Shown: in pieces, positions 35,622 through 54,869 of the stretch
Numbering within the stretch: the first letter of the stretch is position 1
Layout: every line of letters starts with the position of its first letter
DNA from: Microbacterium sp. ProA8
Lineage (GTDB): Bacteria; Actinomycetota; Actinomycetes; Actinomycetales; Microbacteriaceae
Direction of reading: 5' to 3'
Assembly: GCF_039905635.1 (NCBI RefSeq)
Contig: NZ_CP157000.1
Location: 2,604,001-2,668,000 of the forward strand
Length of the DNA: 64,000 bases
Made by a program: the position numbers and the translations under genes
Notes under the pieces: model-generated
The model's database searches: none
Seen by the model: only the letters and a program-made list of their open reading frames with translations
What the model was told of the DNA's origin: nothing

Positions 35622-36767
35622 TCAGGCAGCAGCCCGAACCTGCGGGCCCACGTAGCGCGCTGAGGGCCGGATGATCTTCGGGTCGCGTGCCTGCTCGAGG
35701 ATGTGTGCGGTCCACCCGATGGTGCGGCCGACGGCGAACGTCGGGGTGAACATCGATCGGGGCAGGCCGCACCGCTCCATCACGAGCGCCGCCCAGAACT
35801 CGACGTTGGCGTGAAGTTCGCGCCCGGGCTTCGCCTCCGCGAGCAGCCGTTCCGCCGTCTCCTGAAATCGCACGGCCAGCTCCACCCGCGCACCGCCGGT
35901 GCGCAGTGCGACCTCCTTCATCAGCTCGGCGCGCGGGTCCGCGGTGCGGTACACGGCGTGCCCGAATCCCATCAACCGACGGCCCGCGGCGAGTTCGCCG
36001 CGGATCCACGGCTCGATGCGGTCGGCCGTTCCGACGGCATCGAGCCCGTCGAGCGCGCGGGACGGCGCCCCGCCGTGCAGCGGGCCGGTGAGAGCGCCGA
36101 GGGCCCCGACGAGGCAGGCCGCGGCATCCGCTCCCGTCGAGGCGATGACCCGGGCGGTGAAGGTCGAGGCGTTGAAGCCGTGGTCCATGACGGCGATGAG
36201 GTAGGCGGTGAGCGCACGCTCCGTCGCTTCGTCGGGGACGGCGCCCGTCACCTGGTGCAGGTAGTTCGCGACGACGCCGCGGCCCTCGTGAGCCGGCAGC
36301 ACCGCCTCCCCGTGGGCACGTCGCCACAGCGCGACGACGATGACGGGCGTCCACGCAGCCAGCGAGATCGCATCATCGAGGCGCTGGTCCTCGTCGAGGT
36401 CGTACAGCGGACGGATGCCGCGCCGAGCGCCGAGCAGCGGCCAGGCCGCCGCGAGCCCGGCGAGCACGTCCGGCGTCGCCGAGGCCGCGGCCGCTACGGC
36501 GGCTTCGACGTCATCGCGTCGTTCCAGAGCGGCGGCGACGCGGCCGGCGAACGCCCCGCGCGAGGCATCCGTCGCCGCGTCGCCGGTCACCAGCAGCTGC
36601 CACGCGTCCTCGAACGTCGCCGACGCGGCGAGCTCGATCGCGGAGCGATCGCGGTACTGGTAGAAGCCCTCGTCGCCCCGGACGTCGCTGACCGCCGTCT
36701 CTGCGACGACGACGCCGGCGAGCCCCCGCGGCACGTCGATCGGGGTGGGTGCTGTCATGGCGCTCAT
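35622..36767 (-). CDS. Citrate/2-methylcitrate synthase (CitA type)
   Basis: A 381-residue citrate-synthase-family enzyme. Catalytic histidines are His231 (TGPLHGGAP) and His270 (MGFGHAVYR). The third catalytic position, normally Asp in NVDF, is Glu323 (NVEFWAAL). The activity could be condensation of acetyl-CoA or propionyl-CoA with oxaloacetate; the actinobacterial CitA/citrate synthase 2 group is the best match. AAGGAG lies seven bases before the ATG at 36767. It is divergent from the HTH-citrate-synthase gene, with which it shares a 140-base intergenic region. Confidence 0.85.
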   Translation of the reverse strand: MSAMTAPTPIDVPRGLAGVVVAETAVSDVRGDEGFYQYRDRSAIELAASATFEDAWQLLVTGDAATDASRGAFAGRVAAALERRDDVEAAVAAAASATPDVLAGLAAAWPLLGARRGIRPLYDLDEDQRLDDAISLAAWTPVIVVALWRRAHGEAVLPAHEGRGVVANYLHQVTGAVPDEATERALTAYLIAVMDHGFNASTFTARVIASTGADAAACLVGALGALTGPLHGGAPSRALDGLDAVGTADRIEPWIRGELAAGRRLMGFGHAVYRTADPRAELMKEVALRTGGARVELAVRFQETAERLLAEAKPGRELHANVEFWAALVMERCGLPRSMFTPTFAVGRTIGWTAHILEQARDPKIIRPSARYVGPQVRAAA

Positions 36768-36868
36768 TTCGGCTCCTTGTGGTCAGGCGAATCGTGGTCG
36801 AGCGAATGGGGTCGGGGGAACCGCGAAACGGTCCCGGCGGGGCGATGCCGCTACAGTCAGTGTCGGAA

Positions 36869-36903
36869 CTTGATCGTGCGTTCGTCAATCTTGATCGGAT
36901 CAA
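36869..36903. promoter_or_regulatory. Operator-like repeats upstream of the HTH-citrate-synthase gene
   Basis: CTTGATCG occurs at 36869-36876 and 36890-36897, 21 bases (two helical turns) apart. The second is part of a perfect palindrome TTGATC-G-GATCAA (36891-36903) that ends four bases before the ATG. A -10-like TACAGT lies at 36852-36857. Probably the binding site of the adjacent HTH protein or another regulator; inferred. Confidence 0.5.
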
Positions 36904-36907
36904 CATC

Positions 36908-38125
36908 ATGAGCGATCTGCCACGCCTCACCGCCGCCGAGACGGCGGCGCGACTCGGCGTCAAGCCGGAGTCTCTGTACGCGTACGTGTCACGAGGGCTG
37001 CTCTCGCGCGAACGCGACGCCGCCGGGTCGTCCTTCGATCCGCTCGAGGTCGAGGCGTTCGCGCGCCGTCGCCGGCGGGCGACGAGCCCCGCGCCGGGAA
37101 CGACCGTGCGCGACTCTCGGGCAGCGGGCACGCCGCTCATGGTGCTCGACACGAGCCTGGCCCACATCGACGAAGACGACGAACTGCGCTTCCGGGGACG
37201 CTCCGCAGCGCGACTGGCGCGCGAGCACTCGTTCGAGGAGGTCGTGGCATGGCTCTGGAACGTGCCGTCGCTCCGAGGACCCTCGAGCGAAGATCTGACG
37301 GTGGCCCGGCGCACGATCGCGGCGCTCGGTGAGACCGCCTCGGCACTGGATCGCGTGCAGATCGCCGTCACCGCGCTCGGCGCCACCGACCCGCTCCGTG
37401 ACGACCCCGACCCGTCGCAGCTGATCCGTGTTGGCGCCCGGCTGCTCACCGGTCTTCCCGCGGCGCTCGCTCCGGACGGCGAAGCGAGGACGATCGCGCA
37501 CACGCTGTGGCGCGCGTTGGGCGGCTCGGCGCGTCCCGAGGGGATTCGCATCCTGGACGCCGCGCTCGTGCTGGTGATCGACCACGACCTCGCCGTCTCG
37601 ACGCTCGCCGCGCGGGTGGCCGCGTCGGCACGCGCCTCGGGCTACGCGGTGGTCACGGCAGCGCTGGGGGCGTTCGACGCACCGCTGCACGGCACGGCGA
37701 GCCGTGCCGCCGTCCGCATGCTGCGTGGCGTACTCGACGGCGATCCGCCATCCACGGCGATCGCCCGGGCGGTGCGCGACGGCGGGCGCGGCATCCCGGG
37801 CTTCGGGCAGGCGCTGTATGCCGGCGGCGACATGCGCGCGACCGTCCTGCTCGAGATGCTGCGTGAGATGCCCGAGAGCACCGACGTGCTGGCGGCGGTG
37901 GATGCGGTCGCCGATGAGGTCGCGCGCCGTGCCGAGACCCGACCCAACCTCGACCTCGCACTGGCGGCGCTCACGCTGTGGTCGGACATGCCCGAGGATG
38001 CGGGCGCGGTCATCTTCGCGATCGGCCGCATCGCCGGGTGGATCACCCATGCGCTCGACGAGTACGACGAGCGCCCGATGCGGTTGCGACCCCGCGGCCG
38101 CTACGTCGGCCCCGCCCCCGAGTGA
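36908..38125 (+). CDS. Citrate-synthase-like protein with N-terminal helix-turn-helix; catalytic His replaced
   Basis: A 405-residue fusion. Residues about 7-50 form a helix-turn-helix (LTAAETAARLGVKPESLYAY) of the excisionase/MerR-like type, followed by a basic linker and a citrate-synthase fold. His226 and His261 (APLHGTAS) are kept and Asp349 (RPNLDLAL) is present, but the second catalytic His is Gln301 (PGFGQALY). It may therefore bind the substrate or product and act as a regulator of the divergent citrate synthase, or be a slow enzyme. Start at 36908; no Shine-Dalgarno. The last 25 bases overlap the convergent hydrolase gene. The regulatory role is inference. Confidence 0.82.
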   Translation: MSDLPRLTAAETAARLGVKPESLYAYVSRGLLSRERDAAGSSFDPLEVEAFARRRRRATSPAPGTTVRDSRAAGTPLMVLDTSLAHIDEDDELRFRGRSAARLAREHSFEEVVAWLWNVPSLRGPSSEDLTVARRTIAALGETASALDRVQIAVTALGATDPLRDDPDPSQLIRVGARLLTGLPAALAPDGEARTIAHTLWRALGGSARPEGIRILDAALVLVIDHDLAVSTLAARVAASARASGYAVVTAALGAFDAPLHGTASRAAVRMLRGVLDGDPPSTAIARAVRDGGRGIPGFGQALYAGGDMRATVLLEMLREMPESTDVLAAVDAVADEVARRAETRPNLDLALAALTLWSDMPEDAGAVIFAIGRIAGWITHALDEYDERPMRLRPRGRYVGPAPE

Positions 38126-46684: not shown

Positions 46685-51755
<5,071 letters not shown>

Positions 51756-51991
51756 AAAAATGAAAACCACCAACAACCCGGGAAAACGAGTCGAAAGCAG
51801 CGAGTTCAACCATGACCAAAAACGAATATCAAACTGACATCCATGAATTGATCCAAAAAGGACCCCCACCAACCAAAAAGGTCAGCGAGGATACAAAAAT
51901 TGGCATTTGACAAGTGCACGCTGTTGAGTTCTCAAAGATCGGACGCACCAGCGTTCCGGTCTCTCAACCTTCGCCGCTGGGCAACTTCTCT
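51756..51991 (-). other. rRNA operon leader
   Basis: About 235 bases between the promoter and 16S. It includes TTTGAGAACT (minus strand, 51927-51936), repeated in the 16S-23S spacer; the motif sits in a spot where actinobacterial rrn leaders carry antitermination/processing boxes. AT-rich compared with coding DNA. No gene. Confidence 0.6.
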
Positions 51992-53383: not shown

Positions 53384-54682
53384 TCACGAGAGACCGGGGT
53401 AGTTGCGCTCCTCGGCGCCGATGTACAGCTGCTGCGGACGGCCGATCTTGGTCTGCGGGTCGCCGGCAGCCTCGCGCCATTGCGCCAGCCAGCCGGGCAG
53501 GCGGCCGATCGCGAAGAGCACGGTGAACATCCGCGTCGGGAAGCCCATCGCCTTGTAGATGACGCCGGTGTAGAAGTCGACGTTCGGGTACAGGCGCCGA
53601 TCCTGGAAGTACGCGTCGTTGAGCGCGATCTCTTCGAGCTCCTTCGCGAGATCGAGCAGGGGGTCGCTGACGCCGAGTGCGGTCAGCACCTCGTCGGCCG
53701 ACTCCTTCACCAGCTTGGCGCGCGGGTCGTAGTTCTTGTAGACCCGATGCCCGAAGCCCATGAGCTTCACGCCGTCTTCCTTGTTCTTCACGCGCTCGAC
53801 GAAGCGCTGCACGCTCTCACCCGAGTCGCGGATGCGCGCCAGCATGTCGAGCACGGCCTCGTTCGCACCGCCGTGAAGCGGGCCGTACAGCGCGTTGATG
53901 CCGGCCGAGATCGACGAGAACTGGTTCGCCCCGGTGGAGCCGACCAGGCGCACGGTCGAGGTGGACGCGTTCTGCTCGTGGTCCTCGTGCAGGATCAGCA
54001 GGCGCTCCAGCGCGCGCGACATCACCGGGTCGACCTGGTACACCTCGGACAGCACGCCGAAGTTCAGCTTCAGGAAGTTGTCGACGAAGCCGAGCGAGTT
54101 GTCGGGGTACAGGAACGCCTGCCCGATGCTCTTCTTGTGCGCGTACGCCGCGATGACGGGCAGCTTCGCCAGCATGCGGATCGTGTTGAGCTCGACGTGC
54201 TCGGGATTGTTCGGGTCGGACTGGTGCTCGTAGTACGTCGACAGCGCGGAGACGGCCGAGGACAGCACCGACATCGGGTGCGCGGTATGCGGCAGCGCCG
54301 AGAAGAACCGCTTGAGGTCCTCGTGCAGCAGGGTGTGACGACGGATCTTCTCGTCGAACTCCCCCAGCTGGTCGGCCGTGGGCAGCTCGCCGTAGATGAG
54401 CAGCCACGCGACCTCGAGGTACGTGCTGTTCTTCGCCAGCTGCTCGATCGGATAGCCGCGGTAGCGCAGCACACCCTGGTCGCCGTCGATATAGGTGATC
54501 GCGGACTTGGTCGCCGCGGTGTTCACGAAGCCGTAGTCGAGAGCCGTGTAGCCGGTCTGGCGGGTGAGGGTGGAGAGGTCCACGCTCGGCGAGCCGTCGG
54601 TGCCCCGCAGCAGCGGGAACTCGGCGGACGTATCACCGATCGTGAGGGTGGCCTTCTCCTGGTGGGTGCCCGCGTCGCTCAC
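53384..54682 (-). CDS. gltA: Citrate synthase (type II, TCA cycle)
   Basis: A 432-residue citrate synthase. The catalytic triad is complete: His270 (GPLHGGANEAV), His312 (MGFGHRVYKNYD) and Asp369 (YPNVDFYTG). An N-terminal domain of about 60 residues, typical of hexameric Gram-negative/actinobacterial GltA, is present. GTG start at 54682 has GAGGAGG four bases upstream. A promoter candidate (TAGGCT, minus strand 54803-54808) would give a leader of roughly 115 bases. Third citrate-synthase-family gene in the window, and the only canonical one. Confidence 0.95.
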   Translation of the reverse strand: MSDAGTHQEKATLTIGDTSAEFPLLRGTDGSPSVDLSTLTRQTGYTALDYGFVNTAATKSAITYIDGDQGVLRYRGYPIEQLAKNSTYLEVAWLLIYGELPTADQLGEFDEKIRRHTLLHEDLKRFFSALPHTAHPMSVLSSAVSALSTYYEHQSDPNNPEHVELNTIRMLAKLPVIAAYAHKKSIGQAFLYPDNSLGFVDNFLKLNFGVLSEVYQVDPVMSRALERLLILHEDHEQNASTSTVRLVGSTGANQFSSISAGINALYGPLHGGANEAVLDMLARIRDSGESVQRFVERVKNKEDGVKLMGFGHRVYKNYDPRAKLVKESADEVLTALGVSDPLLDLAKELEEIALNDAYFQDRRLYPNVDFYTGVIYKAMGFPTRMFTVLFAIGRLPGWLAQWREAAGDPQTKIGRPQQLYIGAEERNYPGLS

Positions 54683-54869
54683 GGCGCCTCCTCGCGATTT
54701 CTGGTCGTACCGGGGGTGTCGTCCGGTCCTGAGCGTCACCGTGGGGCGGTCTGCATCAGAACGGAGGGGCGGGACGGGCATGCCGCGTCGCCGCGTTCCT
54801 ACAGCCTAGTGCGCCGCTGCGCCTACTGTTGACACGGCCAAAGGGACCCGGCATCCGATGGAGGAATCC

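Follow-up and report, generated by a model that had tools for sequence, protein, structure and literature searches.

A winged helix-turn-helix protein with a citrate synthase fold as a proposed local transcription factor beside a CitA-type citrate synthase gene in Microbacterium

The window analyzed here, a stretch of 64,000 nucleotides within the single-contig, 4.37-Mb genome of Microbacterium sp. ProA8, carries a gene for a protein in which a winged helix-turn-helix (wHTH) is fused to a citrate synthase fold (HTH-CS). Divergent from it is a gene for a CitA-type citrate synthase (CS2), and a predicted operator lies between the two (Table 1). A preliminary description of the sequence had named these parts (a DNA-binding N-terminus on a citrate synthase domain, a divergent citrate synthase gene and an operator-like repeat just before the start), and each was found again: the wHTH and the PF00285 fold are both recognizable, the two genes are divergent in most loci compared, and the repeat is conserved and co-occurs with the gene. 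In the whole genome, PF00285 marks five genes (six matches): a gltA-like gene, also in the window (53384-54781), a prpC-like gene at 3.93 Mb, CS2, HTH-CS, and one further citrate synthase-like open reading frame. The gltA-like and prpC-like genes score above the curated NCBIfam cut-offs; the best score of HTH-CS is 143.9 bits against a citrate synthase cut-off of 421.3, and CS2 just misses as well (325.2 of 332 bits). At the locus of the fifth gene (L006, C1:508812-511961), the open reading frame follows one that resembles, by eye, a CoA-acylating aldehyde dehydrogenase.

Table 1. Features of the locus and its surroundings, in window coordinates.
Feature	Position	Strand	Basis
HTH-CS, wHTH fused to a citrate synthase fold, 405 aa; proposed local transcription factor	36908..38125	+	
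Winged HTH, residues 9-59	36932..37084	+	Structure models; weak MerR/BldC-type fold matches
Second (recognition) helix, residues 20-28; family core [TS]-[LV]-YAYVSRG	36965..36991	+	
Linker, residues 60-75	37085..37132	+	Low confidence, pLDDT <50
Citrate synthase domain, residues 78-396	37139..38095	+	Pfam PF00285
Gln301 codon (E. coli H305 position)	37808..37810	+	
Predicted operator GTCAA-TC-TTGAT-CGG-ATCAA; half-sites 36884-36888, 36891-36895, 36899-36903	36884..36903	+	Conservation; co-occurrence with gene
Additional TTGAT half-site, 9 bp before operator	36870..36874	+	
CS2, CitA-type citrate synthase, 381 aa; proposed target	35622..36767	-	
-35-like hexamer TTGACG of CS2, overlapping operator	36883..36888	-	Conserved spacing; putative promoter
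-10-like hexamer GACACT of CS2, 18 nt from -35-like hexamer	36859..36864	-	Putative promoter
LSU rRNA, to 49784, cut at start of searched stretch	within 46800-51756	-	
SSU rRNA	50234-51756	-	

In the structure model of HTH-CS, the wHTH is followed by residues 60-75 without secondary structure and then by the domain with the citrate synthase fold. Members of the MerR family have a long dimerization helix after their wHTH, and this helix is absent from the model. The N-terminus scores 18.2 bits against the Pfam MerR family, below the cut-off of 28.2, as do all Pfam HTH scores relative to their cut-offs; fold matches to BldC, SoxR and NmlR are weak (E 3e-3 to 2e-2). Conservation is concentrated in the recognition helix and the ligand pocket. 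The helix residues Y24, Y26, V27 and R29 are present in 120 of 121 near proteins (the remaining one is partial) and in all 120 of a second, mainly proteobacterial protein set, and are invariant in two alignments (A1 and A3); one locus, L168, is an exception and reads YANVSRG. Among the genomic loci this conservation is inflated, as some were fetched by a helix pattern and others kept by a loose one, so that the second protein set and alignment A1 give the fairer estimate. The closest named matches of HTH-CS are from Microbacterium. NCBI names for the family include 'citrate synthase family protein' and 'citrate/2-methylcitrate synthase', and one member is called a 'helix-turn-helix domain-containing protein'.

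Among proteins of known structure, the best sequence matches of CS2 are citrate synthase 1 (2c6x), which we take to be B. subtilis CitA, and then M. tuberculosis CitA. All three have Glu at the position of the catalytic Asp (E323 in CS2), as do all 96 aligned CS2 sequences. Of 119 anchored loci, 101 have a CS2 lying divergently within 1.5 kb of HTH-CS, a small number of these being weak or distant; five loci without a recognizable helix (L016, L053, L142, L148 and L151) were dropped before this count. Ordinary citrate synthase loci (L017-L036) are left out, as is L065, and the loci are dominated by Streptomyces, hence not independent; most Streptomyces loci examined carry the divergent pair.

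The predicted operator ends 4 bp before the ATG of HTH-CS, and on the opposite strand its GTCAA arm reads as the TTGAC of the CS2 -35-like element. In 50 of 100 loci a -10-like NACANT follows at a spacing of precisely 18 nt; nine loci have it at 17 nt and three elsewhere between 10 and 25 nt. This element is far from consensus. Because the arm coincides with the -35-like element and the -10-like spacing is conserved, the operator appears to be so placed that a bound protein would hinder or help polymerase at a putative CS2 promoter. Operators of the MerR family lie inside a 19-20 bp spacer between -35 and -10, whereas the operator predicted here overlaps the -35-like element, with a spacer of 18 nt (50 of 100 loci). 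A scan of both strands of 36700-36960 for sigma-70 and terminator consensus sequences returned nothing, and no clear HTH-CS promoter was seen there.

Across the family the operator takes the form of a palindrome plus a third half-site, with the consensus RTCAA-YN-TTGAY-N3-RTCAA and a spacer range of N(3-7) in most upstream regions inspected. In 101 of 117 loci (duplicates L067 and L072 left out) the pattern occurs in the 300 bp ahead of the recognition helix, a count not independent of the pattern, which was formed by eye from these loci. Elsewhere in the same loci it has 4 matches in the other 996,693 bp, and none was found in 2340 resampled upstream regions (a first-order Markov control rather than an exact shuffle). 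The 16 loci without the N2-8 pattern comprise 8 of 18 without a divergent CS2 versus 8 of 99 with one; L150 lies beside a synthase yet lacks the full motif. The spacer is 3 in 75 of 100 measured loci, mostly 6 in a distant actinobacterial family, and 6-7 in Proteobacteria and Deinococcus plasmid loci. In the 75 N3 loci, TTGA[CT] is the commonest sequence at the distance of the additional half-site, with T, T, G and A in 49, 59, 59 and 60. The operator recurs in Proteobacteria and Deinococcus. Among previously unseen loci, the full motif is present in all three from Kitasatospora, Ewingella and Caballeronia, and in six of eight plasmid loci (the core in seven). L163 has the core only; L164 has neither motif and is the sole one of the eight without a divergent neighbor.

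Of 60 plasmid loci listed, we opened 14, and all except L164 have a divergent neighbor: a synthase in four, a CoA-transferase in three, an HMGL-like carboxyltransferase in two, DUF2332 in two, and a 2-hydroxyacid dehydrogenase and an MFS transporter in one each (six of these neighbors were assigned by Pfam). In Proteobacteria and Deinococcus, HTH-CS genes often face a CoA-transferase III, HMGL-like carboxyltransferase, 2-hydroxyacid dehydrogenase, MFS transporter or DUF2332 gene (L147, L148, L149, L151, L161, L163, L165, L166 and L167). Such varied partners suggest different ligands or pathways.

Gene and motif also track each other by genome. In three cohorts, the motif is present in 118 of 126 genomes with HTH-CS versus 4 of 121 without, directly upstream of the gene in 117 of the 118 (in G379 it is 1.5 kb away) and as the sole match in 106 (9, 76 and 21 by cohort). 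Among 58 relatives, scanned with the strict N3 pattern (the other two cohorts with N2-8), it occurs once, directly before HTH-CS, in all nine genomes with a full-length gene and in none of the other 49; the nine loci had been seen while the pattern was formed, and the new information is the absence from the 49. In 150 Streptomyces genomes it is found in 87 of 94 with the gene (86 directly upstream) versus 3 of 56 without, leaving seven with the gene and no exact motif; six of the 94 had been seen earlier (L037-L042), and others may share species with named loci. In the distant actinobacterial family, the figures are 22 of 23 with the gene versus 1 of 16 without, and 9 of 9 for the genomes whose loci were previously unseen (the other 14 of the 23 had been seen). 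Genomes counted as lacking the gene include G009, which has only an HTH-CS fragment with a stop, and G453 and G195, whose operator-like sites lie on contigs where the gene may be missed. In the genome of Microbacterium sp. ProA8 itself, the strict motif occurs once and its 12-bp core at three places; the gltA-like and prpC-like genes are therefore without the strict motif, and a wide regulon in this genome is not supported. The locus thus has the layout of a local divergent one-component regulator, with a divergent neighbor and a conserved predicted operator between the genes.

Within the genus, HTH-CS has a patchy distribution, with a full-length copy in 6 of 35 genomes, including this one. 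The six have four citrate synthase-like matches each versus two in 26 of the remaining 29, a pattern expected were HTH-CS and CS2 gained or lost together. One genome has a second, more distant HTH-CS-like match in addition to its existing one (G047:C2:112723-113859; 38% identity over residues 7-395).

We compared active sites by aligning 237 HTH-CS and 96 CS2 sequences to E. coli GltA. The E. coli residues H229, H264, R314, D362, R387 and R407 are each kept in 235 or 236 of the 237 HTH-CS sequences. Four of them, which we take to be the oxaloacetate-binding residues (H229, R314, R387 and R407; 236, 236, 235 and 236 of 237), are all present in the window protein. E. coli K309, presumably a CoA contact, is matched by Arg or Lys in 95 of 96 CS2 sequences versus 42 of 237 HTH-CS sequences; the window protein has the non-basic Ala305 there. 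In 171 of 237 HTH-CS sequences a block of 45 E. coli residues is reduced to 26-32, versus 40 in 88 of 96 CS2. The acid pocket of HTH-CS is thus conserved, whereas its CoA side, with K309 mostly lost and this block of the fold shortened, looks eroded.

The alignment also confirms the reading that Gln301 stands in for the second catalytic His of the window protein while His261 and Asp349 remain, leaving its His-His-Asp set incomplete. Asp349 is near-invariant (235 of 237); in the enzyme it presumably serves catalysis or acyl-CoA handling rather than oxaloacetate binding. At the H305 position, 135 of the 237 sequences have His, 99 have Gln and two have Met, with a gap in one, versus His in all 96 CS2. 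Gln is found in 96 of 121 close relatives, His in 111 of 116 broad loci and in all 120 of the second, mainly proteobacterial set, and most of the wider family retains the full His-His-Asp set. In a tree built from 180 of the 237 sequences (FastTree, H305 column removed, 56 of 177 forks open), His and Gln interchange about 16 times, at least 12 of them on well-supported branches. Six other pocket residues show no change in 132 close sequences, versus a median of 15 changes over 373 columns. The H305 site is thus neither free nor tied to catalysis, because solely His, Gln and, rarely, Met are tolerated; we infer that either a His or a Gln side chain can hold the carbonyl of the ligand. For the six columns best associated with the His/Gln state there was no significant independent-pair signal, too few pairs differing for significance. 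At L140 (Devosia sediminis) the active site is more degraded, Gln standing in for His261 and Gly for Asp349.

These results revise the preliminary description in several respects. Gln301 is not fixed among homologs, and the His/Gln interchange rules it out as a clade-defining loss. His is restored in close relatives, as in P0008 (80% identical), but not as random variation, given the few residues seen at the site. The proposal of an enzyme turned transcription factor is strengthened by the homologs and the operator; what falls away is the His-to-Gln change as its defining event, the operator and HTH being equally present in members that retain His. A role in '(methyl)citrate' metabolism was too specific, as the partner is of the CitA type and the genome carries its 2-methylcitrate synthase gene at another place.

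Comparison among homologs shows the fusion, the fold and the divergent partner, and conservation of the recognition helix, the operator and the acid pocket. We therein see an argument, with a probability of roughly 0.84, that HTH-CS is a local transcription factor, acting at one operator, in which a former citrate synthase serves as the sensor domain. From the conservation of helix and operator we infer that the wHTH very probably binds the predicted operator between the divergent genes. Binding is likely to control both CS2 and HTH-CS itself, given an operator that overlies the CS2 -35-like element and directly adjoins the start codon of HTH-CS. With moderate confidence, the pocket would bind oxaloacetate or a close di- or tricarboxylate, and closure of the fold on this ligand would alter DNA binding. 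Citrate synthases close on oxaloacetate, so that a ready-made switch between the two domains would be at hand. Catalysis would then not be the job of HTH-CS. More tentatively, and at slightly less than even odds, the unliganded protein would repress and a build-up of oxaloacetate would relieve repression, so that more synthase is produced when its substrate builds up. This switch may, in other lineages, have been placed before other acid-metabolism genes. Counting against the reading are the Pfam HTH scores below cut-off, the complete His-His-Asp set in most of the family at large, the near-invariant Asp349, the negative search for an HTH-CS promoter, and the 16 loci and seven Streptomyces genomes that have the gene but no matching motif.

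The direction of this control could be the opposite one: HTH-CS may bind beside the CS2 -35 element and recruit polymerase, without repression. Class II activator sites overlap the -35 element and extend upstream of it, as the predicted operator does, and the -10-like element far from consensus also speaks for activation; abutment on the HTH-CS start codon is rather what we would expect of an autorepressor, and we consider activation somewhat unlikely. A different ligand is another possibility, the pocket reading product or acyl-CoA and giving end-product feedback instead of substrate induction. Citrate occupies the same citrate synthase residues as oxaloacetate, some divergent partners elsewhere are CoA-transferases, and the near-invariance of Asp349 fits an acyl-CoA or citrate sensor and counts against a non-catalytic oxaloacetate sensor; the CoA-contact position, basic in just 42 of 237 sequences, makes such a sensor unlikely.

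That HTH-CS is a working (methyl)citrate synthase and at the same time a DNA-binding regulator reporting substrate occupancy strikes us as improbable. Since most of the wider family keeps both the His-His-Asp set and the oxaloacetate arginines, some members may be enzymes. Against this stand the Gln that replaces His in the window protein and in 99 of 237 sequences, the CoA-contact residue mostly lost and the shortened stretch of the fold. A Caulobacter study points the same way: when the same His of CitA is replaced by Ala or Trp (H303A or H303W), E. coli gltA is no longer complemented, and citC, numbered directly after citB and perhaps an HTH-CS, fails to complement it where citB succeeds (PMC7083601). 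Finally, a dying synthase paralog with a chance HTH-like N-terminus could account for the patchy presence in the genus and the fragment with a stop in G009; it is already contradicted by a near-invariant recognition helix, by an operator and pocket conserved over phyla and by six pocket residues unchanged while the median column changed 15 times, and we give it hardly any credence.

As a local transcription factor, HTH-CS has parallels. In B. subtilis citR-citA, the LysR regulator CitR is encoded divergently from the CitA synthase, likewise a dedicated local regulator facing a CitA-type enzyme; CitR is of the LysR type, whereas the sensor of HTH-CS would be the citrate synthase fold itself. 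PutA, NadR and BirA are enzyme-derived regulators, and HTH-CS would resemble them as a DNA-binding protein that senses a metabolite through an enzyme fold. It would thus belong to the enzyme-derived, ligand-sensing local regulators, with a citrate synthase fold as its sensor. Its wHTH fold resembles, by weak matches, that of MerR/BldC-type regulators (for BldC, PMC5859096); unlike them, it continues into a linker and a citrate synthase domain, and its predicted operator is a palindrome with a third half-site. In the open-access PMC literature, to which this statement is confined, we found no HTH-citrate synthase described as a regulator.

Two published gene pairs are similar by description. 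S. coelicolor SCO5831 and SCO5832 (citA3 and citA4) are adjacent citrate synthase-like genes with a shared intergenic region; they are described as putative citrate synthases with a gel-shift-bound MtrA site between them, in passages that mention no HTH or self-regulation (PMC12323332). Control of this Streptomyces intergenic region would, on that account, be shared with MtrA, since MtrA also binds it. In Caulobacter, the consecutively numbered citrate synthase-like genes citB and citC (CCNA_03757/03758) differ in whether they can replace gltA in E. coli: citB, coding for a protein with 37% identity to CitA of B. subtilis, can, and citC cannot; the moonlighting regulator of that study is a different protein, CitA, 65% identical to E. 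coli GltA (PMC7083601). That citC encodes an HTH-CS is our guess; no Caulobacter name appears among the 120 profile-search matches listed. In M. tuberculosis, overexpressing citA is reported to have increased acetate flux through the TCA cycle (PMC3101192), and the CitA type that CS2 resembles is therefore functional.

We see about even odds that a multi-phylum transcription factor family goes under the 'citrate synthase' label, using the fold as an oxaloacetate gauge to control an enzyme of the kind it resembles and reading one operator from Actinobacteria through Proteobacteria to Deinococcus; His and Gln would both serve, since the residue is needed solely to hold the carbonyl of the ligand. 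Thousands of genomes may carry HTH-CS proteins labeled as citrate synthases: a profile search matched 7871 of 8000 scored candidates, and in the 120 matches listed the recognition helix is little changed. If these are switches, metabolic models overcount citrate synthases, and a dedicated layer of control, with a predicted operator, would lie at the entry to the TCA cycle or at other acid-metabolism genes. Oxaloacetate is unstable and hard to measure in cells; if the proposal is true, HTH-CS would be a natural sensor, probably for this acid.
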